A stretch of 22,944 bases of DNA, from positions 1 through 22,944 of IMG/VR virus record IMGVR_UViG_3300031565_005582; one strand, written 5' to 3'. Made by a program: the position numbers and the translations under genes. The DNA comes from a virus. Under the pieces are notes generated by a model, which saw only the letters and a list, made by a program, of their open reading frames with translations, ran no database searches and was not told the DNA's origin. Numbering within the stretch: the first letter of the stretch is position 1; the number at the start of each line of letters is the position of its first letter. Positions 3,851 to 16,487 of the stretch are shown here, one piece after another.

Positions 3851-4183
3851 CTAAATTTTCCGCCCAAACGCTACGAATTCGCCATGAATACCGTAGGGCT
3901 TTAGACCGTATGCCAATATAATCTTCATCGATTCATCCGCGTTAAGCGCACGGGGATCGACACATCCAACAATCTGCTGCGCGCCACGCTTCCCTGCGTC
4001 GAGGATAAGCTCTTCAATCATCCTCGCACCGTGGCCACGCCGTCTCGACTCTTTACGCACGAATAGCTCGTGGATAAAAAGCGTGTAGTCTTCACCCTCG
4101 TAGGAGAATACGACAAAGCCGTACTCCGTCTCGAGAATGCTTCGAGATGTTCTTTCTTTCACATAATCAGCATACATGCTCAT
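3851..4183 (-). CDS. GNAT family N-acetyltransferase
   Basis: A 110-aa compact GNAT domain. The core of the family is clear: strand LFIHELFV (35-42), then the acetyl-CoA pyrophosphate-binding loop RRRGHGARM (47-55) leading into helix IEELILDAGKRGAQQI, then a late segment NADESMKIILAYGLKPYG (81-98). These enzymes move an acetyl group from acetyl-CoA to an amine; the substrate here cannot be told. The chosen ATG at 4183 lies 2 nt after the adaptor stop (TGAAAATG). A TTG at 4189 overlapping that stop, or a further ATG at 4177, are alternatives. It is embedded in the operon between the adaptor and a virion-protein gene, so it may act on a virion or host protein during assembly. The family is secure; the role is unknown. 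Confidence 0.85.
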   Translation of the reverse strand: MSMYADYVKERTSRSILETEYGFVVFSYEGEDYTLFIHELFVRKESRRRGHGARMIEELILDAGKRGAQQIVGCVDPRALNADESMKIILAYGLKPYGIHGEFVAFGRKI

Positions 4184-4185
4184 TT

Positions 4186-4878
4186 TCAAACACTTTCACG
4201 GTAATGGCTTAGATCGGCTTCAATCTCATTGTCGTTATCAAGAGTCATGTTTGTCAACGTTGATATCATATGCTCACGAAAATACGCCGCCTGCTCCATA
4301 GCTCGAGCGGCCATGGGGTGGGCGTCTTTGCCGAGCACCGTGGCTTTGACGTGCCAGAGGATAAACTGAATAAACTCAGGTATATCGCACTTGTCGGCGC
4401 CCGTCGTAAGACGGTTGGCGTTTCGGATATACCACGCTTCCATGAGTGTGCCCGACTCGTAGGCCGCTGGTGTAAGTACAATCTTTGGCGCGCCAGCTGT
4501 GGCGTTGACGAGAAAATACTGGTACTTCTCGGTATTTGTCGTGGTGGTGCGCGCCAGGCGGTACTCAAGAAAACGCTTCCAGCTCTTTACCCGCTTAACC
4601 TCATAAACGTCGGTACCGTTCTTGTAGATGATAGCGCGTATTTTGCCTGCATAAATGTCGGAAGGAAAAGCTATTTCCGACTCAGTGTCGACAAGTGTCA
4701 GGTCGGCTGGGGTGAGAAAGTAGTCTTCATGAAGGGTGAGTATATGACCCTCGGCGTCGTCGATGGCGTCGTTGGTGTACGACAAAAGCTCAGTCTCATC
4801 GACCAGGCCGTCGTAATCATCCAGGTCGAGCTCTTTGTCGAGACGCGCTTTAATCTCTGTCCAGGTCCAAAATTTCAT
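4186..4878 (-). CDS. Head-tail adaptor protein
   Basis: A 230-aa protein with GAGGAA 8 nt before its ATG and an ATGA overlap with the upstream gene. The N-terminal part (LLSYTNDAIDDAEGHILTLH, residues 31-50) followed by EDYFLT is the helical pattern seen in podovirus adaptor proteins, the class that includes P22 gp4 and T7 gp11. These form a ring under the portal and link it to the nozzle. The middle is beta-rich (FPSDIYAGKIRAIIY; KIVLTPAAYESGTLMEAWYI). The C-terminus returns to helix (DIPEFIQFILWHVKATVLGK; AMEQAAYFREHM). Length and position next to the nozzle-like gene agree with this role. The assignment rests on pattern recognition and neighbourhood. Confidence 0.78.
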   Translation of the reverse strand: MKFWTWTEIKARLDKELDLDDYDGLVDETELLSYTNDAIDDAEGHILTLHEDYFLTPADLTLVDTESEIAFPSDIYAGKIRAIIYKNGTDVYEVKRVKSWKRFLEYRLARTTTTNTEKYQYFLVNATAGAPKIVLTPAAYESGTLMEAWYIRNANRLTTGADKCDIPEFIQFILWHVKATVLGKDAHPMAARAMEQAAYFREHMISTLTNMTLDNDNEIEADLSHYRESV

Positions 4879-5228
4879 GAGCGTGGTTCCTCAAAGTAGC
4901 CTACCATCACCCGAACGGTGCAGGCGCCATTTACGGTTACGTCGAAATACTCGGTATCAAACTCGTCCCAGTTAAAAGTGATCCACACACCACCGGAGTC
5001 GGGCGTGATGTATGTCATCCACGCATCTTTCGGCGTACGCTTGAGATTATGCAGTACGCGGTAGTTTGTGGCTGCTGCTGTAAAGGTGAGCTCAAACACA
5101 CGACCTTTGAAGCGGGCATATGGGTTTTCGACGAGAAAATCATCCACCACCTCGAGCTGCTCACGAAGCCGCTCGTCAGGTACGTTGTTTAATTCAAGCC
5201 TGTACTTCTCACGCGTTGCCACTGCCAT
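4875..5228 (-). CDS. Small beta-rich phage structural protein, unknown
   Basis: A 117-aa protein between the nozzle-like gene and the adaptor gene. The frame is open further upstream, but a start before 5228 would overlap the nozzle gene by up to 176 nt, so the ATG at 5228 is preferred (20-nt overlap). GGGAG directly abuts this ATG, so a GTG two codons on, at 5222, has the better spacing and may be the true start. The N-terminal third is helical and charged (VPDERLREQLEVVDDFLVEN). The rest is a small beta domain with NYRVLHNLKRTPKDAWMTYI and FDTEYFDVTVNGACTVRVMV. This pattern resembles short beta proteins found among podovirus tail genes, for which I know no firm function. It may be a collar or tail accessory protein. 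Confidence 0.72.
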   Translation of the reverse strand: MAVATREKYRLELNNVPDERLREQLEVVDDFLVENPYARFKGRVFELTFTAAATNYRVLHNLKRTPKDAWMTYITPDSGGVWITFNWDEFDTEYFDVTVNGACTVRVMVGYFEEPRS

Positions 5229-7545
5229 CTCCCGTCGTGCTGTGGTCGAAAGTTCCTTCCCCGTGGGGAAGGAAGGGTATAGACACACCAAGAATGCGCA
5301 TTTTCTGGTCTTTGGGGTATCCTCGGATAACCCACTGCTTACCGGCCCCAGTCGGTAGAGTATTGCCTGCGTCCAGCACGACAAGGGTGGTAGCCGAGCG
5401 GGTGTAAATCTCCCACTCTTCGACGTAGCTGTCGTCGTCGAGAGATACGAACATCCCCTCTATACCAGTTGGCCAGGTGCCGGTTATAACCACCGTGTTG
5501 GCCGCGCCATTCGTCGTCGCTACTTCGTAGTCGTCCGACTTGGCGACAATCACCTTGCCTTTGGTGATTTTGATCTGTTTGTAATAACATCGCAGCTTAC
5601 CGCGAGTCATGCGCACCAGCCGCTTCCATACCTTATTAGTGCCAGACTGAGTGACAATGGTCTTACCAGCTTCCGTGAAAGAATCCTCGAGGTCGTTTTT
5701 GTGGAAAAACTGGGCGGTAAGATCCGACAAGTTCTCGAAGATGGCGTGCATCTTGGTGATCCACTTGCGGTTAAACGAGCCGCCAAACGAGAATGCGCAG
5801 CTCTCCCACTCGGGGACGACGGCCTTATGGTACCAGTTTGCATACGTCTTTGTGGTGTCTACCACCGGGTCGGTAAGTGCTGCTGCACTCTCCATAAAGA
5901 CGTAGCCATTTGTCTGGGCGCGGACATAATACCCGGCGTGCGTGTCGTCGGGTTGGTAGTAGGTTAACGCCGTGGTGTCGGTGGAGTAGTCCATGAAAGT
6001 TATACAACTGTTCGCACCAATTGGTTTATTAAGATCGAGGCAAATTACACCGTTTGTAGCTCCGGGTACCACCCAATAGATCCTGTTATTGTACGCATCA
6101 TATGTGCCAGCGACATCGTCGCGGTCGGTGTCGTCAACAATTCCTACAAGCATGGTTTGTATCGTGGTGCCTACATGCTCGCTCAGTGGGATAAGCTGAA
6201 AACCATCCGTCACAAAGATAGTGCCGGTGCGCGATAAAAAGTACAGGCTCGTGTCCACCTGAACAATCGATCTATGGCTTATTACACCCTCTGTACGCGA
6301 TAGAAACATCTTTTGATGCGCGCCGTTGCCGATGTTGTCAACGGTACCTTCAACACGATAAATGCACTCGTTTTCAAAGAACACCGGGTAGCGGCCAGCT
6401 GTGCCACAGCCCTTTATCTCGATCTCAGCTTCAAAGCGGAATGTCGACGGCGTTGCCTCGGGAAGTCCTGGTATGCTCTGTAATACATAACTTCCATACT
6501 GGTAATATATACTGTTGCATACATACCAAGTGGTGTCGGTATACGCGACATAGGTGGAAAAAAGCGAACCAGGGGGCTGGTCATGGTCGACTTCACCAGA
6601 CGCCGTATATAGCGGACTCCTTGTTACGAGAACTGCGTCGGTTACCTCGTCTTTAAAAGTTGTGGCGGTGTAAGTAACCTGCCCAACGTAATATGGTATA
6701 CTTCCATTGTGCGTAGTTCGGTAAATCCGCACAAATACACCGTGGTTACTCGACACACCATTGAATATATAATAGCCTTTCGCTGCTGTTATATTCGGGC
6801 CTGTCCCGTCACATTTATCCATATTGGCGGCGTTCATGTAGTGGCCGGCGATAGAAGGGTCCGCCATATTTGTTTTTTCGAGTATGTATGGCTTTCCGTA
6901 TATGCGCGTGCCGGCTGGCCCATGATAACCACTTTGGTCAGAACGCACGAATACGAAATAATAAAAGTAATTCTTCGAATCATCGTTAGATGCAGTTACC
7001 GTAGGCGCGGGGAAGCTTCCACTGTTTGGTGTAGGTAGCCCAGCACGGTATACAATCCAATCTGTCGGGTATGTAATCCCAACGTCGAAAAGATAGCTGT
7101 ACTTCAGTATGTAGGTCTCACTGTCACGGCGCGATACTATATATCTGTCAACCGTGTTCCTCGATATCATCATTGGGTACGTTATCGACGGCACGGATCC
7201 GTTCTCTAACACAGTGCCGACTGTACGCCAGGAATCGGAACGGCCTGTCGACGTGTAAATAGTATAACCACTGCTTATCATGAGGAAGTTGTACTCCTCA
7301 TTTGGCGTGATAAGACTGTCAGAAGATTGCGTGCGCTCCAAACGATACATTGAGTGAAGTGCAGCGTTACCGCCAGGCCCCTGCTCCTGGCCTGCCGTAG
7401 TGTGGAAAGCAACAAAGCCGCCGCGCTGAACAAGCTTGTCGTTATCGTCGACGTAAAAATTAAGCACCGACTTGCCGGCCTGCTTCGGCCCGTCGATATA
7501 ATTATCGGTCTGGCCTGTAAAGGAATGTATGTCCAAACTTGGCAT
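5209..7545 (-). CDS. Tail nozzle / stabilisation-like protein
   Basis: A 778-aa beta-rich protein. The start is the ATG at 7545, which shares one base with the preceding TAA (TAATG) and has GAGGGGG just upstream; the open frame extends 21 codons further but would overlap the previous gene. The N-terminus (GKSVLNFYVDDNDKLVQRGG) matches the pattern of nozzle proteins, which begin by describing a Gly/Arg-rich first propeller blade. Long repeats of aromatic beta strands follow (for example YILKYSYLFDVG, YFYYFVFVRSDQSGYHGPAG, YYIFNGVSSNHGVFVRIYRT), compatible with a beta-propeller. The size agrees with T7 gp12 (about 794 aa); P22 gp10 is shorter. These proteins form the tail tube end and contact the adaptor, whose gene lies two genes downstream. 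The assignment is inferred from size, composition and context. Confidence 0.75.
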   Translation of the reverse strand: MPSLDIHSFTGQTDNYIDGPKQAGKSVLNFYVDDNDKLVQRGGFVAFHTTAGQEQGPGGNAALHSMYRLERTQSSDSLITPNEEYNFLMISSGYTIYTSTGRSDSWRTVGTVLENGSVPSITYPMMISRNTVDRYIVSRRDSETYILKYSYLFDVGITYPTDWIVYRAGLPTPNSGSFPAPTVTASNDDSKNYFYYFVFVRSDQSGYHGPAGTRIYGKPYILEKTNMADPSIAGHYMNAANMDKCDGTGPNITAAKGYYIFNGVSSNHGVFVRIYRTTHNGSIPYYVGQVTYTATTFKDEVTDAVLVTRSPLYTASGEVDHDQPPGSLFSTYVAYTDTTWYVCNSIYYQYGSYVLQSIPGLPEATPSTFRFEAEIEIKGCGTAGRYPVFFENECIYRVEGTVDNIGNGAHQKMFLSRTEGVISHRSIVQVDTSLYFLSRTGTIFVTDGFQLIPLSEHVGTTIQTMLVGIVDDTDRDDVAGTYDAYNNRIYWVVPGATNGVICLDLNKPIGANSCITFMDYSTDTTALTYYQPDDTHAGYYVRAQTNGYVFMESAAALTDPVVDTTKTYANWYHKAVVPEWESCAFSFGGSFNRKWITKMHAIFENLSDLTAQFFHKNDLEDSFTEAGKTIVTQSGTNKVWKRLVRMTRGKLRCYYKQIKITKGKVIVAKSDDYEVATTNGAANTVVITGTWPTGIEGMFVSLDDDSYVEEWEIYTRSATTLVVLDAGNTLPTGAGKQWVIRGYPKDQKMRILGVSIPFLPHGEGTFDHSTTGDGSGNA

Positions 7546-8417
7546 TAGACCCCCTCGAGTATACCTGTACAAAGCACCTGCGCCGTCGCGTCCGGCATTG
7601 AACCCCAACCACCGTAGCCGTCGCGGAGCTCCACCTCGGAAGGGAAGCCCTCCATGGCCGCCAGGGCTTCGCCCTGGTCGCCATCATGGTAGCGGTGGTA
7701 CAGAGCCGTAAAGACGCAGCTCCCCTTATCACCGGCGTACCACGCCGCGATAAGCGCCTTCTCCGAAGAATCAATCTCCCCTTGCATCCGTCCAGTGGCA
7801 TGAACGGCCAAAGCTGTCAGATACTTATTGTGATCGGCGACGACTCCGTCGCTGTTAAGAAGAGCCAGGCCCTCAAGACCGCCGCTGAGATACGCCTGCA
7901 CCGAGAGGAGAAATGGCTCGAGGTGGCGTACGTTGGTAATCTCACGATCACCTTCACCACATATCCAGTTGTTACTATTCAAATACTCGAGCGTGCGGTT
8001 TACCTGAGGAAGCGAATCCGGGCCTTTGGATATCCAGTAGTGAGCAAGACCGATAAAACCATCGCCGCTGCACTCGGACTTGGAGTCAGGCTGGCCGTCT
8101 CCGTTCATATCCGCCAGGCATGACATATTGTCACGGTACCACTTTCCGTCACGATCCCACTCAAGGTCGTCCAGGTCGAAATTGTCTTTCGGGCAGTACG
8201 CAGCCGTCAAGGCTTTGAAAGTGAGCTTGTCGCAACGGGCCAGGTAAATGTCGTCGGTGATCGTCGCGCAGTAGTGGTCGCGAAGAGCAACGTGCGCCGC
8301 CGTGTCCTGCTGCGTCGCCTTTTCCTCGTGCTTTGCGCAGCCGAAAATATAGACGAGAAGCATCGCCCACGAAAGGAAGACGAAGAGTACGACGCCGTAT
8401 CGTGCGAGCTCTTTCAT
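7545..8417 (-). CDS. Putative exported lipoprotein, Cys-rich, unknown function
   Basis: A 290-aa protein starting with ATG in a TGATG overlap. Residues 8-26 are a hydrophobic helix (GVVLFVFLSWAMLLVYIFG) ending in IFGC, an imperfect lipobox (Phe at -2 is unusual) with the candidate lipidated Cys at 27. Eight more Cys (50, 62, 75, 100, 116, 153, 234, 283) follow, which suits disulfides outside the cytoplasm. DMNGDGQPDSKSE (103-115) looks like an acidic calcium-binding loop. The rest is mainly helical, with tetratricopeptide-like amphipathic segments but no family I recognise. It lies between a signal-peptide fibre-like protein and the nozzle gene. A membrane-anchored, non-lipidated form is the alternative. 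A role at the host envelope, such as receptor masking, is a hypothesis only. Confidence 0.7.
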   Translation of the reverse strand: MKELARYGVVLFVFLSWAMLLVYIFGCAKHEEKATQQDTAAHVALRDHYCATITDDIYLARCDKLTFKALTAAYCPKDNFDLDDLEWDRDGKWYRDNMSCLADMNGDGQPDSKSECSGDGFIGLAHYWISKGPDSLPQVNRTLEYLNSNNWICGEGDREITNVRHLEPFLLSVQAYLSGGLEGLALLNSDGVVADHNKYLTALAVHATGRMQGEIDSSEKALIAAWYAGDKGSCVFTALYHRYHDGDQGEALAAMEGFPSEVELRDGYGGWGSMPDATAQVLCTGILEGV

Positions 8418-10537
8418 CACATTACCCCGCCAATGCGACTAACTGACATTGTTGTTAGCTGATTTGTAGCGTGCCCGTAAAATGTGACATCGTCACTGTC
8501 GTCGCCAGCATCACCAGCTTCCCCCCACAACGACACATAATCACCAGCATTTAGGCTAAGAATAACAGTGCCATTTAACATGTATTTTTTATCGGCGGCC
8601 AAATCAGAAATCAGACCGCCAACATACTCAGCGCCAGTACCATTTTTTAATAAATACGTCTGTATATATGTCGTTGTACTTCCCCCTTTTGTACCAGCAT
8701 AAACAGCATAAGATATAGAGTACTTCCCAGCAGTTGGCGCATAGAAACGTCCAGAAGATAGCGCATTATGCGTATCTGTAGTTGCACCATCAAAAACAAC
8801 TTCTTCTGCGGACGAAGTGTCGTCAATGGTTTGTGAAGATGTTAAATAGTATTGGGCAGCTACCACTTCGCTTGCAGCTATGGCGGCAGGGCCGGATACT
8901 TTAGATATAGATAAATAGCTTGTTTCGGATACTGTCCACGCAGCTCCAGTAGTGTTTAAAACTGCCTGTATGACTATGGTATCTCCGGCGTTAAAAGGTA
9001 GGGTTATTGAGCCAACACGGTTAGTCGGCTGTGTTACCGAACCAGATAGCGGCTGCGAATATATGAAGTACGTTGTTGTGCTATTAACGTATACAGCTAA
9101 AGCATTGCTACCCGTACCCGTTACCGCTACGGAATCGCCAAACACGGCAGACGAAATATTATAAGTTCCGCTGACCTTTACCGTGTAAGTGTCCGACCCA
9201 TTCCATGCTGAATGCGTATCCTGCGTAATAGTAGGGAAGTCTATTTCATCGAGATCATTGTCCGTTACTGTCTGCGCCCCACCAGCAAAGGCAGTAAAAC
9301 TTACTAAGCGCGTATCCGCATCGGATGAAACAACCGTGTTTGAAGACCAGCCTACGATGGGGACGGATGCACGAATAAAAATATCGTCACCTGCGCCATA
9401 AGCAACTGGCTGGCCGGCGGTTCCATCCCACCATGCCGCTCCATCTGACGATTGTATTGCAAAGCCGCCGCCGCTGACTAATAGCACGCCATCAAATGTT
9501 TGATTACCGGCGTCGTAGTACGCGGCACTTCCAAGAGTGAATGCGGTTGCCGTTGACATTTTAGCCGTGTCCATCACGCCAACTTCAGCAAACTGATAGC
9601 TAATGTTGCCTGTTATTCCCGTAGGGTCAATATGCGATATCTGAATGTCAGCAGTATCACCAACCCTTCGGTATCTGCCTGTAAGCGTACCGGCGGTTAT
9701 ATTCGCCGCCGTTGGTGTAAAACTCTTCCAATCCGTCATCGCCGGGCCGTGAGCCTTAGCTGAAGGCCCTACTGAAATGTTGTCGAAAACCATCGTGAAC
9801 GCCGCGCTCGTATCGATGGCATGGATGGCAAGACGATAATCTGTGTAGCCAGTATTTGTTTGAAAATACCCCTCATACTTTCCGCTACCGTCAACTGTGA
9901 ACGGCGTTGGCTGTATGACGGTATTGGCGCTCGCCGGATTGCCAATAACATAAACGGTCAAAGCCGACGGATCGGTTGGATCCGAAGAATCGCCGTAGTC
10001 AAATGTTCCACTGCTCACATAGTAGTAAAACTCCACCTTCATCATCTGAGGGTGGTTGGCGAACTCTGTGTCCACGGAGAAGTCGTAAGAAACACCCTCG
10101 CCCTGCGCGCTTCCACCTCCGGCGTGCGTTATCTCCATCGAATATGTGCCGAGCTGGTTATCGGTGCTCTCAATAGCTACGGATATTTCATCCGCACTAC
10201 CACCAGTGCCATCCACCGGCGCGTCGACCGCGCCGTCGTCGTAAGCCGTCCAACCGGTTACAGTTCCGTCTTCAAAATCATAGTTATCTATGTAATTGAT
10301 CCCCGTGGAGCTTCCTGAGCCAACCTCTTTTACCACGTCCACGCCGGCGCCGTCGTCGGTAACAGTGTAAAGCTTCTTACTCGCAGCAAAAAGCCTCACA
10401 TCATTGGATCCACTGCCCGGACCAGCCGGATCCGACGCCTGGTGGTCAAACTCAATTACCGGGCCTTCCAAATAAGCAAACGTGCCCGACATGAGCAGAA
10501 TACAGAAAACGACAATGGCGTACTTAAATTTACTCAT
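8417..10537 (-). CDS. Exported fibre-like protein, CBM-like and two C1q-like domains
   Basis: A 706-aa protein starting with ATG in a TAATG overlap, with AGGA 8 nt upstream. It has a signal-peptide-like N-terminus: basic MSKFK, hydrophobic YAIVVFCILLM, and a possible cleavage after Ala21 (TFA). Residues about 82-258 begin YIDNYDFEDGTVTGW and read as a jelly-roll similar to carbohydrate-binding modules. Residues 268-400 begin MTDWKSFTPTAANI with YRRVGDTADI, a repeat-type beta domain seen in environmental phage proteins. Residues 405-548 and 557-703 are two C1q/TNF-like domains; both contain a His-containing DTH start, an AGKYSISY/SGTYNISS strand, an NAGD turn and a final strand of the SISKVSG/SVSRIGG type. 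Receptor or glycan binding is likely. Whether it is part of the virion or exported by the cell is open. Confidence 0.75.
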   Translation of the reverse strand: MSKFKYAIVVFCILLMSGTFAYLEGPVIEFDHQASDPAGPGSGSNDVRLFAASKKLYTVTDDGAGVDVVKEVGSGSSTGINYIDNYDFEDGTVTGWTAYDDGAVDAPVDGTGGSADEISVAIESTDNQLGTYSMEITHAGGGSAQGEGVSYDFSVDTEFANHPQMMKVEFYYYVSSGTFDYGDSSDPTDPSALTVYVIGNPASANTVIQPTPFTVDGSGKYEGYFQTNTGYTDYRLAIHAIDTSAAFTMVFDNISVGPSAKAHGPAMTDWKSFTPTAANITAGTLTGRYRRVGDTADIQISHIDPTGITGNISYQFAEVGVMDTAKMSTATAFTLGSAAYYDAGNQTFDGVLLVSGGGFAIQSSDGAAWWDGTAGQPVAYGAGDDIFIRASVPIVGWSSNTVVSSDADTRLVSFTAFAGGAQTVTDNDLDEIDFPTITQDTHSAWNGSDTYTVKVSGTYNISSAVFGDSVAVTGTGSNALAVYVNSTTTYFIYSQPLSGSVTQPTNRVGSITLPFNAGDTIVIQAVLNTTGAAWTVSETSYLSISKVSGPAAIAASEVVAAQYYLTSSQTIDDTSSAEEVVFDGATTDTHNALSSGRFYAPTAGKYSISYAVYAGTKGGSTTTYIQTYLLKNGTGAEYVGGLISDLAADKKYMLNGTVILSLNAGDYVSLWGEAGDAGDDSDDVTFYGHATNQLTTMSVSRIGGVM

Positions 10538-13362
10538 TATCCAATTCCTATAAGGCGATAAGTGCCAGCTGGTAGGTCGATCATCGACGTTACCCGGACT
10601 TGGGTAGCCGAAGGATGGTCGATCTTGACGTCCATAACTTGATGATTATTTGAATTGTCTTTGAACTGCCAAATGCACTGGCGCGAATCACTCACGCGAC
10701 CGCGTGCCGGGGTGTCCGATCCGTCCACGGTGTACGTCACCGTTGCCGTCGATCCGTCCCATGTTGCGGCGTCTTCATACTCCCACCGGTCGATGCTCAT
10801 CTTGAGCCACACCGCACCGGTGTCGACCAGGACGTCGTTTAAGTCGGTATCAAAAATGGCCCGGCCAGCTGCTGACGACGCCGGCCTGCCGGCTGTCGTG
10901 TAGTTCTCGAGACGAGCGCTTTTCAACTGACCAGAGACATAAATGTCTTTAATGTAATGAGTCGCGTCCCCCAAGTCTTCGGCGCCGTTGCCAGTCGGAC
11001 GCAGAAGAGTCGTCCAAATAACCGCTCCGTTAGCCGCCGCAGAGTTAGGAGAAAGAGTCAGGTTCTCCGCCGTCGTGTCAGAGCCGTATATCTGCGTACC
11101 GCCTGTACGTCCAGCAACCATGACATACTGGGAATGGTCGTCATCACCAAGCCCAGAGATTGTACCGTGGTCGACTTCAGTGTCAGGCGCAGATGCCGCC
11201 CACTTGGCACCGTCCCAGAACAAAGCATCACCGGAATTTGGCGCGCCGACCGTGGCAAATGTCATCAGATTTGCAATTGAGAACGTCGTCGTACCGTCCT
11301 GAATATTCCCGTCAATCCAAAGATCATTCCACCGTTTACCCGTTTTCCCTATGTCCCAAGCTGAATCGGTCTCAGGATAATACGCCGCGCCCAACTCAAT
11401 GAGACCCGTGCCGTTAGGGTCAATGATAATGCTACCATTGGTGTCGGTCGACGATATCGTATTGCCGTCAAGCAAAAGGTTATCGACCGGAAGCGCCGAC
11501 TTTAAAGCGTCGAGCGTCTCAAGTGCAAGCTGAACCGTCGTGTCCGCAACCGTGAGCCACCCACTGAAAGCACCTGAATTAACGGAGATAAGCGCAGCTG
11601 ATCCCACCGCGCCGCCACCGACAAGCTTTGTGTTAAATGTCGACTTGCTGACAGTCAAATCGTATATGTAGCCACCGGCAACGTTGTTGTCGACGACTGC
11701 GTAGCCAAGCTGCGCCAGCTCAAGACCGGCCAACTCATTAGTGGCTATAGACACCGTACCGGCGCCTACTGCCGAAAGCGCCTGTGTGTTATTGTCGTAC
11801 GCCGCAGCATTCATAACGGCATAGTACGTTGGTGTTGCCGTGTTCTTATCGTCTTTACTTATATAAAGTACGTAAGCGCCAACTGAAGATGCGCCGGACG
11901 TGTTGAGAGCTGTAGGCGTCCCCGCAGCGTTGTAAAACATTGGCAGCTCGGTCGCCTGGCTGTACATCACCCAATTGCCCGAGCCATCCGTATAATAAAT
12001 ATTCCATACAACACCGGCACCAGCCGAGTCAGCGATCGTCGTCTCAAGCCCATGGTCCTCAAGGACATCGGCGCCGACAATTTTAACCTGCCTATCGCCG
12101 GCAGCCGCTCCCGTGCCCGTTGCGACACGAGTTATAATTGCACCAGTTCCTCTTATGACAATCCCGACGTTATTATGTAAATATAAAGATAAACTTGTCT
12201 GTGCGTTGTAAGGATGATCTTCACGCACTGTACGTAAATTGACGCCGTCTTGAAGAACCTCAAACAATACGATATAAGATGTGTAAAGCCCTGTCATCGA
12301 TGTCGTCGTGCCTATCGTACCAGTTGAATCAATATAGACATAATGCAGTGTGTTCGACGCCGACAGATCCACCGTCTGCCCGCCAGCCCACGACACCGCC
12401 TTACCGTTAATAAAACCAGTGCCGGCGCGCAGGACGGTAAAGTCGCCGCTGGATATCGAATAATACGCGCCCGCGCCAGCCCAAGCGTCCACTCCGGTAC
12501 AATCCATGGCACTTACGGATGCCTGCAGCTGGTTTATCGCTCCGACGAATGATGAACCCGACGTTAGAATAGATGTACCGAAAGCTGTGTTTGACGCATC
12601 CCCGATGTTAATAGCCGTCGATACGTTTGCGTCCTTTAAACCGCCGTCAATACGCCACGCGTCCGCCGTGGCGAGTGTACCGGAGCTGTCCGAGAAAGCG
12701 CCGCTTTCCGCTATGGTTACGGTTCCGACCGTTACCTCATCGGACCATATTTTAAGCCATCGCTCGGTAGTCGTACCAAGTGACCATGTGCTGTCCACCT
12801 GTGGACGGGCGTTATCAGCACATTGAATGTAACCAGTCTGCGCTCCGACGCCGTCGCCAGCGTTGGCGTGTAACGTCAAATGGCTATTGGCACTCGCACC
12901 GCCAAAAATATGCTGGCCAGCATTAACACCCGTAAAAGCAGTGCCCGCACTGTCCAAATCATCGTAGCCATGCTTATAAACGTAAAAATCAAGCGTCTTA
13001 CTAAGGAAACCCGAAAGTATCTGGTCATAACCCCAGTCCATGTCGGTTATCTTATACCACTTCGCAGCTGAGTCACCTTCGCGCTGCTGCCACTGGTACC
13101 CGGCGGCGTTACCGTCTCCGTCGTCGGTGACGACACGGTAATCGCCAATACTGTTACCAGACGATGGAAGATCGCCAGGGGTGTCGACCGCATCCTGCGG
13201 ATACGGATAGAAAACGTTGAACACCCAGTCGAGCGCTTCCTGAAGATTAGTAATACCAGGGAGTGTTGAGTGGGTGTAAGCAAATTCAGATGTAGAATGC
13301 CGGTAAATATGCTGGTGCGGACCAATAACCACGCCGCGTGGGTCATGCTCGAAAGAACTCAT
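10537..13362 (-). CDS. Large tail-fibre-like / receptor-binding protein
   Basis: A 941-aa protein with GGGAG 9 nt before its ATG and no signal peptide. The N-terminal 115 residues (GITNLQEALDWVFNVFYPY, then DYRVVTDDGDGNAAGYQWQQ and ITDMDWGYDQIL) look like a virion-anchoring domain. The shaft contains repeated strands of the type TWSLGTTTERWLKIWSD, AWDIGKTGKRWNDLWIDG and EDLGDATHYIKDIYVSG, common in fibre or beta-helix proteins. The motif HGTISGLGDDDHSQYVMVAG followed by RTGG is a recurrent phage fibre motif. The C-terminus (DSRQCIWQFKDNSNN, ending PAGTYRLIGIG) is a compact beta domain. It lies directly before the gene for a second, signal-peptide-bearing fibre-like protein. Specific receptor and enzymatic activity cannot be told. 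Confidence 0.8.
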   Translation of the reverse strand: MSSFEHDPRGVVIGPHQHIYRHSTSEFAYTHSTLPGITNLQEALDWVFNVFYPYPQDAVDTPGDLPSSGNSIGDYRVVTDDGDGNAAGYQWQQREGDSAAKWYKITDMDWGYDQILSGFLSKTLDFYVYKHGYDDLDSAGTAFTGVNAGQHIFGGASANSHLTLHANAGDGVGAQTGYIQCADNARPQVDSTWSLGTTTERWLKIWSDEVTVGTVTIAESGAFSDSSGTLATADAWRIDGGLKDANVSTAINIGDASNTAFGTSILTSGSSFVGAINQLQASVSAMDCTGVDAWAGAGAYYSISSGDFTVLRAGTGFINGKAVSWAGGQTVDLSASNTLHYVYIDSTGTIGTTTSMTGLYTSYIVLFEVLQDGVNLRTVREDHPYNAQTSLSLYLHNNVGIVIRGTGAIITRVATGTGAAAGDRQVKIVGADVLEDHGLETTIADSAGAGVVWNIYYTDGSGNWVMYSQATELPMFYNAAGTPTALNTSGASSVGAYVLYISKDDKNTATPTYYAVMNAAAYDNNTQALSAVGAGTVSIATNELAGLELAQLGYAVVDNNVAGGYIYDLTVSKSTFNTKLVGGGAVGSAALISVNSGAFSGWLTVADTTVQLALETLDALKSALPVDNLLLDGNTISSTDTNGSIIIDPNGTGLIELGAAYYPETDSAWDIGKTGKRWNDLWIDGNIQDGTTTFSIANLMTFATVGAPNSGDALFWDGAKWAASAPDTEVDHGTISGLGDDDHSQYVMVAGRTGGTQIYGSDTTAENLTLSPNSAAANGAVIWTTLLRPTGNGAEDLGDATHYIKDIYVSGQLKSARLENYTTAGRPASSAAGRAIFDTDLNDVLVDTGAVWLKMSIDRWEYEDAATWDGSTATVTYTVDGSDTPARGRVSDSRQCIWQFKDNSNNHQVMDVKIDHPSATQVRVTSMIDLPAGTYRLIGIG

Positions 13363-13365
13363 CTG

Positions 13366-13590
13366 CTAAATCTCCCAAGTAGAATCCCACGTCGTTACGG
13401 ACTCCAACGTCTTCTCGACGTCACCATTGACGTCATACGTATACTGCGTACGTATCGCCACGTCGCCGTGCGATGCGCTCGCCGCAGCCTGGTACATACT
13501 CGTAATCTGCCTCGAGGCGTTGCGCACATAATAAGCTTTAAGCATCTCACGATTCAACGTGACAATTTGCCCCTGATCTTCGCGTCCCAT
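13366..13590 (-). CDS. Small phage protein of unknown function
   Basis: A 74-aa protein. The ATG at 13590 is chosen because GAGGG lies 5 nt before it; a TTG 12 nt upstream is possible but would begin inside the T-tract/SD zone. It starts with a charged helix (EDQGQIVTLNREMLKAYYVR) and ends in a beta hairpin (IRTQYTYDVNGDVEKTLESV, then TTWDSTWEI). I recall short phage proteins with a similar TEYTYDxxG...TWDSxW ending beside fibre genes, but know no function. It stands immediately after an intrinsic terminator and 3 nt before the 941-aa fibre gene. The SD of the fibre gene is encoded in its last codons, so the two are probably translated together. A fibre chaperone or virion joining protein are both possible. 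Confidence 0.72.
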   Translation of the reverse strand: MGREDQGQIVTLNREMLKAYYVRNASRQITSMYQAAASASHGDVAIRTQYTYDVNGDVEKTLESVTTWDSTWEI

Positions 13591-13605
13591 CGCATCCCTC
13601 AACGG

Positions 13606-13632
13606 AAAAAAAGAAAGGGGGCGAGAGCCCCC
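13606..13632 (-). terminator. Intrinsic terminator after the 503-aa gene
   Basis: On the minus strand a perfect 6-bp stem GGGGGC/GCCCCC with a 4-nt TCTC loop is followed by TTTCTTTTTTT. It begins 6 nt after the stop codon of the 503-aa signal-peptide gene and ends about 15 nt before the ATG of the 74-aa gene. No room remains for a promoter between them, so downstream genes depend on read-through or on promoters inside coding sequence. Confidence 0.85.
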
Positions 13633-13638
13633 GTTTGC

Positions 13639-15150
13639 TTAGTTGGTGGTTACGTCCACAACTTCAAAGTTATGAAGGTAAAATCCAGCTGATTGTACGT
13701 CACTTTGAAGTACATAAATGTACGGCACAATTACTTCATCGGTATCGAAGTCAAACGCAAGAGCGGCGGTAGGATCGGCCAAAGCGCCGTTCTCGCCAAG
13801 CTGAAGCCAAGTGCTCGAAGCGTCGATTGCGGAAGCACCGCTGTTATCTCCGGCAGTGTGCGCACTGGCGTTAGCGATGTGTAGCGCGAACTTTGCTTTG
13901 ATGTCATTCAAAACAGTTACACACTCGGCAAGTGTCGTCGGATTCGTATCGGAGATCAGCGAATCATCGTCGTCATTGTCAGCCTGGTGAAATACCCAAG
14001 ATGCGCCGAGCTGTGCGTCCGCTTCGTGCGCGGCATACGAATCTTGTAGCTCGGACACCGCCAAAATAAGCGTCGCTGTGGTGGTCGGCGCCGCCAAAGC
14101 AATAGCTGTATCGGCAGAGATGTGCTCCTCACCACCTGCACCCTGGTCGGCGTAGTGAGTATTGAACACCGATTTAAGATCCGCAGTGAGGTCTATGGCT
14201 GTTTGAAGCCTCGCCTCGTCACCGATATAGATTTTAATGTCCATGTACTCACCATCGGCGATGTCTTGCGTCGTGTTTACTTCCGCCTCACCGGCGTCGG
14301 CAAGGTTTGACACCACCTTAAGCAGTGCCGCCGCCGCCTTGGTGTTAATAGCTACCGCGTAGTAATCATCATAATTACCAAGCGTAGTTCCGTAAGCCAT
14401 GGCCTTGCGAAGTCCGACGTACATACCGTCGATGCCGTTACCTGTGGTAAGCTCTAACTTAGCGCGGAAATAAAAGTTATCGGTGTCGACGACTTTGGAA
14501 ACGTCGCTCGCCGTGGCACCAGTGCCGAACTCAAGGGCATCGTCCTGTGTCTGGTCGCCGGCAAGGTTAAAACCCTTACCAGTAACCCAGTTAACACCTA
14601 TCGTCTGCGCTACAGTGTTAAACCACTCGAAGTGATGTCCTCGTACCTCAATAGCGTTAACGTCGCCCTGGCCAGCACCAGCGACACCGCCATTGCCAGG
14701 ACCACTGAACGCGCCACTGAGACCTTCAAAATTGAAAATCATTTGGCTTCTGTCGATGTTCTCGAGGCCAACCGCACCGTCAGCAATCTTGGCGTTGGTG
14801 ACTGCATCTGCAGCTATTTCGGCAGTGCCGACGGCGCCGGTCTCAATCTGGGAAGCTCCCACCGAGTCGGCACTCAACGTCAATGCGCCTGTGTTGGCTA
14901 TCGTCGCGTCACCAGACAATGCCACGCCTGCACCGACGTTGCTTCCGTTACCTACAACGAGGTAAGTGTCTGTTAAAGCAATCTCGCCGGCAGTCACCGA
15001 CTCAGCATTTTGAATCAGAGTACCAAGCTGAGTTTGTCGCCCAACCGTACCCCAGTGGTTAAGTAAATACACCTCGCTGGTGGTGATAGTCGCATAGGCT
15101 ATCGGCACCAACACCACAAAAAGAAGCAGAGCTCCTATGATCTTTTTCAT
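13639..15150 (-). CDS. Signal-peptide-bearing structural-like protein with His-pair repeats
   Basis: A 503-aa protein with GGAGG 10 nt before its ATG. The first 20 residues are a classic Sec signal peptide: MKKIIGALLLFVVLVPIAYA with an A-Y-A cleavage site. Residues 45-130 hold fibre-type repeats (VVGNGSNVGAGVALSGDATI; AVTNAKIADGAV), typical of trimeric phage fibres. A jelly-roll or LamG-like region runs from about 165 to 310 and seems to resume at 462-500 (AFDFDTDEVIVPYIYVLQSD). Between them is a helical insert with three imperfect repeats, each with two His and an Asp ([FY]-x-x-H, 6-12 residues, H-x(2,3)-D). It is bounded by intrinsic terminators on both sides and directly follows the capsid gene. 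It could be a head decoration or fibre protein, or an exported envelope protein. Confidence 0.75.
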   Translation of the reverse strand: MKKIIGALLLFVVLVPIAYATITTSEVYLLNHWGTVGRQTQLGTLIQNAESVTAGEIALTDTYLVVGNGSNVGAGVALSGDATIANTGALTLSADSVGASQIETGAVGTAEIAADAVTNAKIADGAVGLENIDRSQMIFNFEGLSGAFSGPGNGGVAGAGQGDVNAIEVRGHHFEWFNTVAQTIGVNWVTGKGFNLAGDQTQDDALEFGTGATASDVSKVVDTDNFYFRAKLELTTGNGIDGMYVGLRKAMAYGTTLGNYDDYYAVAINTKAAAALLKVVSNLADAGEAEVNTTQDIADGEYMDIKIYIGDEARLQTAIDLTADLKSVFNTHYADQGAGGEEHISADTAIALAAPTTTATLILAVSELQDSYAAHEADAQLGASWVFHQADNDDDDSLISDTNPTTLAECVTVLNDIKAKFALHIANASAHTAGDNSGASAIDASSTWLQLGENGALADPTAALAFDFDTDEVIVPYIYVLQSDVQSAGFYLHNFEVVDVTTN

Positions 15151-15179: not shown

Positions 15180-15215
15180 AAAAAATAGACCGCACGCTCT
15201 TAAACGTGCGATCTA
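15180..15215 (-). terminator. Intrinsic terminator after the major capsid gene
   Basis: On the minus strand an 11-bp stem with one mismatch (TAGATCGCACG/CGTGCGGTCTA) and an 8-nt loop is followed by six T. It starts about 10 nt after the capsid stop codon. Placement behind the capsid gene is common in phages, where it sets the level of capsid mRNA above that of later genes. The next ATG is 29 nt beyond it, too close for a complete promoter in between. Confidence 0.88.
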
Positions 15216-15224
15216 CGCTGTGAC

Positions 15225-16487
15225 TTAGTACGAGATTGTGTGGACAATTCCAGAACCGTTTGGCTTCCGGTACTCCATCTCACCAAACAGACATACGTCA
15301 ATTAGGTAAGAATATCCGGTAGTTGCGCGGATTTCATAATAGCTCTTCCCGTCAGGCGCTTTGCGCTTGCGGAAAAGACCGTTGCTGCGGAAGGTTATGC
15401 CTTTCCAGTCGACGATTGGGATAATGTCGTCGTCCATCTCTTGGATGCCGACAATCTTCAGTGCTTCGCCACTGCTGGTCGATGCGATTGTGGTCTCCCA
15501 CCAGCCGTACTCGCTCGCCTTCGGCTCGCCGACAACACGGTACGCACCTTTGTTTGTCTCCATCGCCTTCATGCAGCTTCCCCAGTTCTTGAAAGACATG
15601 AGGAATTCTTGCGCGGTGCCGCGAGCACGTATGCGAACTTCGAGATAAGCGTCGAAAAGCTTCTCGAGGATGTTCGTAGCTGTGATCGCTGCGCCGGAAA
15701 TATTGACCGACTGAAGGTGCGGGTAGGCGGTTTTCGTCTGTCCATGAATGGTCGCCGCGCCGCCGTTTGTGGCGGAAAGAAGCGCCTGGCGCATGGAGAT
15801 GAAAGTGTTGTGGGCACCGCCGGAGTCGAAGACGCCGGGATGATAAAGAGCTGCGTTCTGGGCAGCCGTGAACGCGGAAAGGTTTACTGCCCCTCCACCG
15901 CGAGTCGCCGAAAAAGTGACTGCTTTGGTGTTGAGGTTAATCGCAGTGACATAAATCGCCGTACCCGATCCAGATGTGTCGTCGTCATCAATGACGCTCT
16001 TCTGGCTTAGTTGAAAACGATCTACACGGTCAACAACCATAACTCCGGTGGCGGCGTTAGTTGAATCGGTGACGAGTGCGAAATGCGGGCCGGATCCCAA
16101 CTGGATGGATACCACCTGCTTGTAGTAGTCCATGAAGTCCTCGAGCTCATCGTCAATCAGACGGATGAAAGTTGACTCGGGGATGGGTCCATCATGTTGC
16201 ATCAAGTCGGTGTGATTCAGCTTGATGGTACCCCAGACTTCGCGGTACGCATCAATCTTTCCGCGAATCTTGCTGGACTCAGCGATATCACTCTCTGCAC
16301 TCAAAGCTCCGAAGGAAATGGTGCTGGGAACATTTCCCTTGAATGGTACGATTAAATCTCCACCTTTCCAGGAAGTGTCTTTGACCACTTTGTTAAAAAT
16401 GTAGTCGCGCTTTACAAGATCCTCAGCCAACAATTTGTTGGGGAGGTATTCGTTTAACATTGCCTCGAACGTGCGGGTAGTCCCCAT
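15225..16487 (-). CDS. Major capsid protein, probable HK97 fold
   Basis: A 420-aa soluble protein with GGGAG about 10 nt before its ATG. The order of features suits an HK97-fold capsid protein: an N-terminal helical arm (MLNEYLPNKLLAEDLVKRDY), an early beta strand with GDLIVPFKGN, a long helix with ESTFIRLIDDELEDFMDYYK near 103-122, a beta-rich inserted part (about 140-200), and a C-terminal section with SYLIDVCLFGEMEYRKPNGS. The length is close to P22 coat (430 aa). Gene order (terminase, portal, scaffold, then this gene, then a strong terminator) strongly supports the call. It would assemble on the scaffold into the procapsid, with the portal at one vertex. Subfamily membership cannot be decided by eye. 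Confidence 0.85.
   Translation of the reverse strand: MGTTRTFEAMLNEYLPNKLLAEDLVKRDYIFNKVVKDTSWKGGDLIVPFKGNVPSTISFGALSAESDIAESSKIRGKIDAYREVWGTIKLNHTDLMQHDGPIPESTFIRLIDDELEDFMDYYKQVVSIQLGSGPHFALVTDSTNAATGVMVVDRVDRFQLSQKSVIDDDDTSGSGTAIYVTAINLNTKAVTFSATRGGGAVNLSAFTAAQNAALYHPGVFDSGGAHNTFISMRQALLSATNGGAATIHGQTKTAYPHLQSVNISGAAITATNILEKLFDAYLEVRIRARGTAQEFLMSFKNWGSCMKAMETNKGAYRVVGEPKASEYGWWETTIASTSSGEALKIVGIQEMDDDIIPIVDWKGITFRSNGLFRKRKAPDGKSYYEIRATTGYSYLIDVCLFGEMEYRKPNGSGIVHTISY

Follow-up and report, generated by a model that had tools for sequence, protein, structure and literature searches.

The window analysed here, that is, the whole stretch of DNA under study, is the complete IMG/VR contig IMGVR_UViG_3300031565_005582 (22,944 bases), and probably represents part of a podovirus-like genome. 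Its main genes are all encoded on the minus strand and comprise those for the terminase, portal, scaffold and capsid, the five with which we are concerned, the nozzle-like and stopper-like genes, and those of internal proteins, several of these names having been assigned from position and length. Between the capsid gene and the nozzle-like gene, three of the five proteins begin with what appears to be an export signal, as the original prediction stated, a count that holds when a conserved small gene of about 74 amino acids (aa) is included, which precedes the main fibre (13366..13590), was missed by the list of open reading frames (ORFs), and is an open frame with homologues at the equivalent position in relatives.

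The 503-aa protein (13639..15150), which occupies the slot of a head fibre or capsid cement and is so assigned by homology with the locus L019, opens with MKKIIGALLLFVVLVPIAYA↓TITT, where the arrow marks the predicted cleavage point; its signal peptide (residues 1–20; 15091..15150) has a GGAGG ribosome site upstream and ends at AYA↓TI. The 706-aa protein (8417..10537) is a fibre with a homologue in the podovirus MW202898; it opens with MSKFKYAIVVFCILLMSGTFA↓YLEG, its signal peptide occupies residues 1–21 (10475..10537) with the site TFA↓YL, and its tip is a C1q domain (residues 570–689; 8471..8830; Pfam C1q, E 1.7e-5, over the cut-off). These two signal peptides, including the A-Y-A site of the first, had been pointed out beforehand and were recovered by a home-made heuristic (h-region, charge, and the -3/-1 rule), which, unless a signal is said to be recognised by eye, is the source of the signal calls given here, rather than SignalP. 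The third, a 290-aa protein (7545..8417), begins with MKELARYGVVLFVFLSWAMLLVYIFG↓CAKHEE, its Cys27 being preceded by a long hydrophobic stretch, and is predicted to be an exported lipoprotein or a signal-anchored protein. The eight further Cys attributed to it are present, and the lipobox that had been attributed to it as well has an irregular form in the window, with Phe at -2.

The virion proteins of tailed phages are normally assembled in the cytoplasm, and it is therefore of interest how widely such N-termini are distributed. Scans of IMG/VR with the 503-aa and 290-aa proteins singly gave no relative, but two capsid profiles gave 131 loci (designated by L numbers), 104 of them with distinct capsids, in which the usual order is capsid, an optional cement or head-fibre gene, a small gene, main fibre, second fibre, lysis genes, and nozzle. 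Among the named phages of INPHARED there was no match to the capsid, portal, 503-aa or 290-aa protein of the window. In the 104 loci, a signal peptide or lipobox was called in 35 of the 314 proteins of at least 120 aa encoded between capsid and nozzle, a figure part of which corresponds to lysis-slot lipoproteins or doubtful starts, against 4/424 for the upstream genes (all odd start choices), 0/103 for the capsid and 0/91 for the genes after the nozzle; once checked, the list comprises 27 signal-bearing virion-type proteins in 20 loci. The signals are never found on capsid, portal or main fibre, the last represented in the window by the 941-aa fibre 1 (10537..13362), whose family has an intact N-terminus in 51 loci and a signal peptide in none of them. 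When a random internal segment was placed as an N-terminal extension, the heuristic called a signal peptide whose site fell on the junction in 0.13% of trials, and these trials, together with the counts for the interval and its controls, rule out a chance hydrophobic N-terminus.

Such signals were noticed elsewhere too. In another Bdellovibrionota prophage, L164 (G251:C71), a 602-aa fibre gene at 8220-10025 has the signal peptide AFA↓DV, so the habit extends beyond this capsid clade; and L195 (G370:C1:6001-18000) contains another two short genes whose Cys-containing products bear a signal, one of them fibre-like. When IMG/VR was scanned with a signal-bearing fibre from a Bdellovibrionota prophage, no relative came up.

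As judged from the sequences, the signal is an add-on, fused at the exact start of plain homologues, both in the 503-aa protein and in the second fibres. The 503-aa protein is 30% identical to the plain 665-aa homologue of L019 (E 4e-50), the BLASTP alignment beginning at residues 22 and 3, respectively, and the homologues of L002, L051 and L044 start with Met at the signal junction (alignment A8), where the N-terminal motif YLLNxxxxxxxQLGTLIxNAES (14995..15090) begins, a motif that also opens plain homologues and cement proteins. The second fibres present the same arrangement, in that their motif MKVYGQLExAQxENLxSDP is found at residue 1-2 in nearly all the proteins bearing it N-terminally, and directly after a signal of 17-23 aa in L006, L027, L146 and L148. 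This motif also recurs within the main fibre, and it is thus a fibre motif, its role as a virion anchor being unproven. The homologues of the 706-aa fibre likewise occur in both states: the one in the Bdellovibrionota prophage G227 has the plain motif at its start and no signal, and the one in the podovirus MW202898 carries a signal when an internal start is taken (MFNKILIAIVFIITCLNAFS). The capsid tree implies at least nine changes between presence and absence of such signals. In L006, L027 and L146 the nonsynonymous divergence (dN) is about 0.4-0.6 in the signal against 0.13-0.25 in the next 48 codons, with SWA↓D kept; and a positive n-region, an h-region and AxA-type sites recur across unrelated sequences. 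Homologues lacking the hydrophobic N-terminus, which the original prediction had named as the observation that would count against it, do therefore exist, although what they reveal is a module that was gained and not a spurious signal. The use of dual translation starts, with a plain isoform made from an internal start, was also considered and set aside, since no start codon preceded by a ribosome site recurs consistently at the junction; one candidate, the ATG at codon 16, occurs in the 706-aa gene only and lacks such a site. In sum, we consider it quite probable, on these sequence grounds, that the export is real.

The distribution of cysteines is relevant to the compartment that these proteins would reach. 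Cys density is 8.9 per 1000 in the signal-bearing proteins and 4.5 in the plain proteins of the equivalent interval (permutation p 0.005); Cys is present within the first 60 residues in 4/4 signal-bearing second fibres and in 4/49 plain ones; and a CX5C follows just after the fibre motif in L006, L027 and L146. In the cements, the signal-bearing proteins of L042, L082 and L145 have Cys in common at two columns of the alignment, both positions being occupied in 3/5 signal-bearing against 0/12 plain proteins (Fisher 0.015). The rows in all these comparisons are related to one another, so that the p values are generous. The cement pair suggests an oxidising periplasm.

With regard to the cargo, the signal-bearing proteins are, to judge from their families and modelled folds, of virion type. 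In L082, L042, L133 and L145 the signal is on the cement protein encoded directly after the capsid gene, and in L066 a cement protein has one recognisable by eye, with an n-region charge of zero. The AlphaFold model of the L082 protein (pLDDT, the predicted local distance difference test, 76) gave Foldseek matches to the cements of KHP30/KHP40, Pam1 and GP4 at E 1e-5 to 8e-4, the targets being 7dn2 (E 1.1e-5; template modelling score 0.66 on target), 7dou, 7eel_H and 8h89_J, and the proteins of L002 and L066 match Pfam Bbp16, the family of the BPP-1 cement, below the family cut-off. The cement is single-copy in G001, a whole bacterial genome that holds L082, and in G371, G372 and G373, the records of L042, L066 and L145. 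Our cement profile (A9) is too divergent for scanning. The likeness to the cements of BPP-1 (Bbp16), KHP30, Pam1 and GP4 lies, for L042, L066, L082, L133 and L145, in the fold and in the position beside the capsid gene, and for the 503-aa protein of the window in their N-terminal motif; behind this motif no cement core was found, the body being fibre-like and resembling the 665-aa protein of L019. To our knowledge, none of these four cements carries a Sec signal peptide. Among the fibres, the second fibre of L026/L027 ends in an S74 chaperone (Peptidase_S74, E 7e-8) and can be aligned along its body with the tail fibres of cyanophages.

As regards the 290-aa protein, its homologues are those of L002 (285 aa, 45% identity), L031 (310 aa) and L094 (314 aa), and the four members, the window included, come from two phage groups and have their Cys positions and several motifs in common. 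Their lipoboxes vary from the IFG↓C of the window to the HMG↓C of L002 (His at -3) and the clean ITS↓C of L031. The AlphaFold model is all-alpha (pLDDT 70) and has no PDB match, nor does the protein match any Pfam, PHROG or NCBIfam family; a known lysis protein (spanin or endolysin) was rejected as an identity, since no known lysis fold or family was matched. Our guess would be an exclusion or envelope lipoprotein, and it may form part of the same envelope programme as the fibres or of the lysis/exclusion slot in which it is located. In the phage contig L094 (1120-2610), the homologue immediately follows a fibre-like gene of 181 aa that has a signal of its own.

The host of the window would be of Bdellovibrionota type, as may be inferred from kinship only. 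In a pattern-based scan of the genomes of 84,980 species, the only capsid relative came from a Bdellovibrionales metagenome-assembled genome, on a contig of 212,865 bp, where the genes to either side are chromosomal (by eye, of SecA, Pst and Mot type), and it is therefore a prophage; within the Bdellovibrionota, the phylum most deeply searched, a capsid relative was found in 4/369 genomes and a homologue of the 706-aa fibre in 5/369. Bdellovibrio itself, according to PMC10769870, displays mosaic adhesive trimers (MATs), which resemble phage fibres, are exported to the surface of the predator, and have tips of S74 or TNF/C1q type. S74 fibres are abundant in the Bdellovibrionota genomes (198/369). 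There is a likeness in several respects: the 503-aa and 706-aa proteins have an N-terminal signal peptide, the 706-aa protein combines it with a C1q tip and L027 with an S74 tip, the body is phage-fibre-like, and the host group of one relative is the same, so that by analogy the 706-aa protein and that of L027 may work like MATs. However, the phage proteins are encoded in phage structural operons, and their display on the cell surface would be hypothetical; and the beta-rich N-terminal domain of MATs, of about 130 aa and placed right after their signal peptide, matched none of the phage loci (E 0.1) and none of 13 signal-bearing proteins (E 1) with a profile built from three host S74 proteins (L167, L174 and L188) assumed to be MATs. 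Membership of the phage proteins in the MAT family was discarded on this test.

As for the surroundings of these genes, the capsid gene itself (15225..16487) encodes a protein of 420 aa without a signal peptide (phrog_14242 major head protein, E 1.7e-3; NCBIfam capsid_maj_Podo, 2e-4), and at the other end lies the nozzle-like tail protein of 778 aa, also without a signal peptide (5209..7545; phrog_8094 tail appendage, E 1e-6). Two terminator-like hairpins bracket the 503-aa gene, one between it and the capsid gene (15185..15216; a 14-pair stem and a T run) and the other on its 3′ side (13617..13632). A terminator after the capsid gene is a usual means of setting expression levels, and the two hairpins are compatible with graded expression after that gene. 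A GNAT acetyltransferase gene is found among the structural genes (3851-4189), and similar genes are similarly placed in MW202898 and L164. Among the relatives, L159 (15632-17968, minus strand) and L009 (954-3674) have terminase-like ORFs of 778 and 906 aa, as compared with about 530 in their kin, that of L159 opening with an intein-like GVGDYVYTRLGNPTKI stretch.

Taking these observations together, the reading that we would favour, with some hesitation, is that these are peripheral virion proteins exported through Sec and probably loaded onto the particles at lysis. A Sec/signal-peptidase-I signal would have been fused repeatedly to the exact start of outer, last-added virion proteins, that is, the capsid cement or head fibre (503 aa), the second fibre with its C1q tip (706 aa), and other decorations; the signal would be used and cleaved, and the exported proteins would fold and form disulphides in the periplasm, to join the particles once lysis brings the contents of the two compartments together, in the way that unattached decoration proteins are able to bind capsids already completed. 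Periplasmic completion and joining at lysis would be the simplest reading, because the signal is confined to peripheral, last-added proteins that lie in their normal slots and keep their virion-type domains. Several points weigh against it: (i) no route or timing control is known for periplasmic loading, and incomplete export could leave a cytoplasmic pool; (ii) the mature parts of the 503-aa and 706-aa proteins of the window have 1 and 0 Cys, respectively, so that the disulphide argument rests on the relatives; (iii) a cement match is present in 12 of the 71 loci with at least three genes after the capsid gene, and many relatives are without cement, whose virions can thus do without it, so that an exported copy is not bound to end up on the particle and its loss to the envelope might be tolerated; and (iv) the record of L133 (G370) has a second, plain cement-domain gene (L195), far from the capsid gene.

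The main rival is that the exported fibres and decorations remain with the cell, whether infected or lysogenic, and alter its surface, for instance by shielding receptors so that superinfection is prevented, or by serving a predatory host as MAT-like adhesins. This is rather unlikely in our estimation, though it gains force from the Bdellovibrionales prophage among the relatives, which belongs to the MAT-displaying group, from the combinations of signal with C1q or S74 tips just compared with MATs, and from the lipoprotein encoded next to the fibres; lambda Lom, encoded between tail genes, is moreover known to be exported (PMC12309495). However, the MAT anchoring domain was found in none of the phage loci, cement proteins would make strange adhesins for a cell surface, the N-terminal motif of virion type is retained directly behind the signal, and the host of the window is known by inference only. 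Of the idea of a phage-coded surface set, put forward in the original prediction, the export is the better supported part and the cell surface would be only a possible destination, as the signals of the relatives sit on cement and tail-fibre proteins, and a cargo of this type may finish on particles instead of the cell.

That the hydrophobic N-termini are uncleaved anchors, fixing the proteins to the virion or aiding the start-up of the trimer, seems improbable. Phage fibres often have special N-terminal anchors, and cleavage is so far only predicted; but the homologues without the segment start exactly at the predicted cleavage site, the three features of a signal peptide recur in unrelated sequences, and Cys is enriched behind the segment. 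Between export and virion attachment, the two options offered at the outset, export fares better, given the grammar of the signal, the exact junction, its faster evolution, and the extra and paired Cys. Still more improbable, in our opinion, is that the signal-bearing genes are moron-like accessory genes, taken from exported fibre genes of the host and with no common purpose. Their patchy distribution, the hairpins that bracket the 503-aa gene and the many S74 fibres of the Bdellovibrionota are in keeping with such an origin, yet the genes fill the normal slots of cement and second fibre, with N-terminal domains of the phage and not of the host, and a terminator in that position also has its ordinary use in expression.

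Comparison with other phages gives partial parallels. The coat proteins of filamentous phages have a signal peptide, and these virion proteins pass through an inner-membrane export path before assembly; the export signal is common to both cases, but filamentous particles assemble at the membrane and tailed phages have DNA-filled cytoplasmic heads. Lambda Lom and the superinfection-exclusion lipoproteins T5 Llp and TP-J34 Ltp are phage-coded exported proteins that act on the host envelope, and Lom sits among tail genes; in contrast, they are not virion-type, and no family match ties them to the 290-aa protein. A partial search of the literature returned no report of cleavable Sec signals on the cement or fibre proteins of tailed phages.

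In more general terms, we would suggest, more tentatively still, that a clade of tailed phages associated with the Bdellovibrionota sends its outer virion proteins (cement, head fibre and receptor-binding fibre) through Sec to disulphide maturation in the periplasm, where the particles would be completed at lysis, or else that the fibres would first re-dress the surface of the predatory host. If cement and fibre proteins of this little-known group did repeatedly gain a cleavable export signal, the assembly of tailed phages, taken as wholly cytoplasmic, could be split over two compartments, or parts of the virion could be deployed as envelope proteins, and the place and manner in which these parts are added becomes a testable question. 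If the hosts are predatory bacteria, it would also bear on the origin of their exported phage-like fibres.

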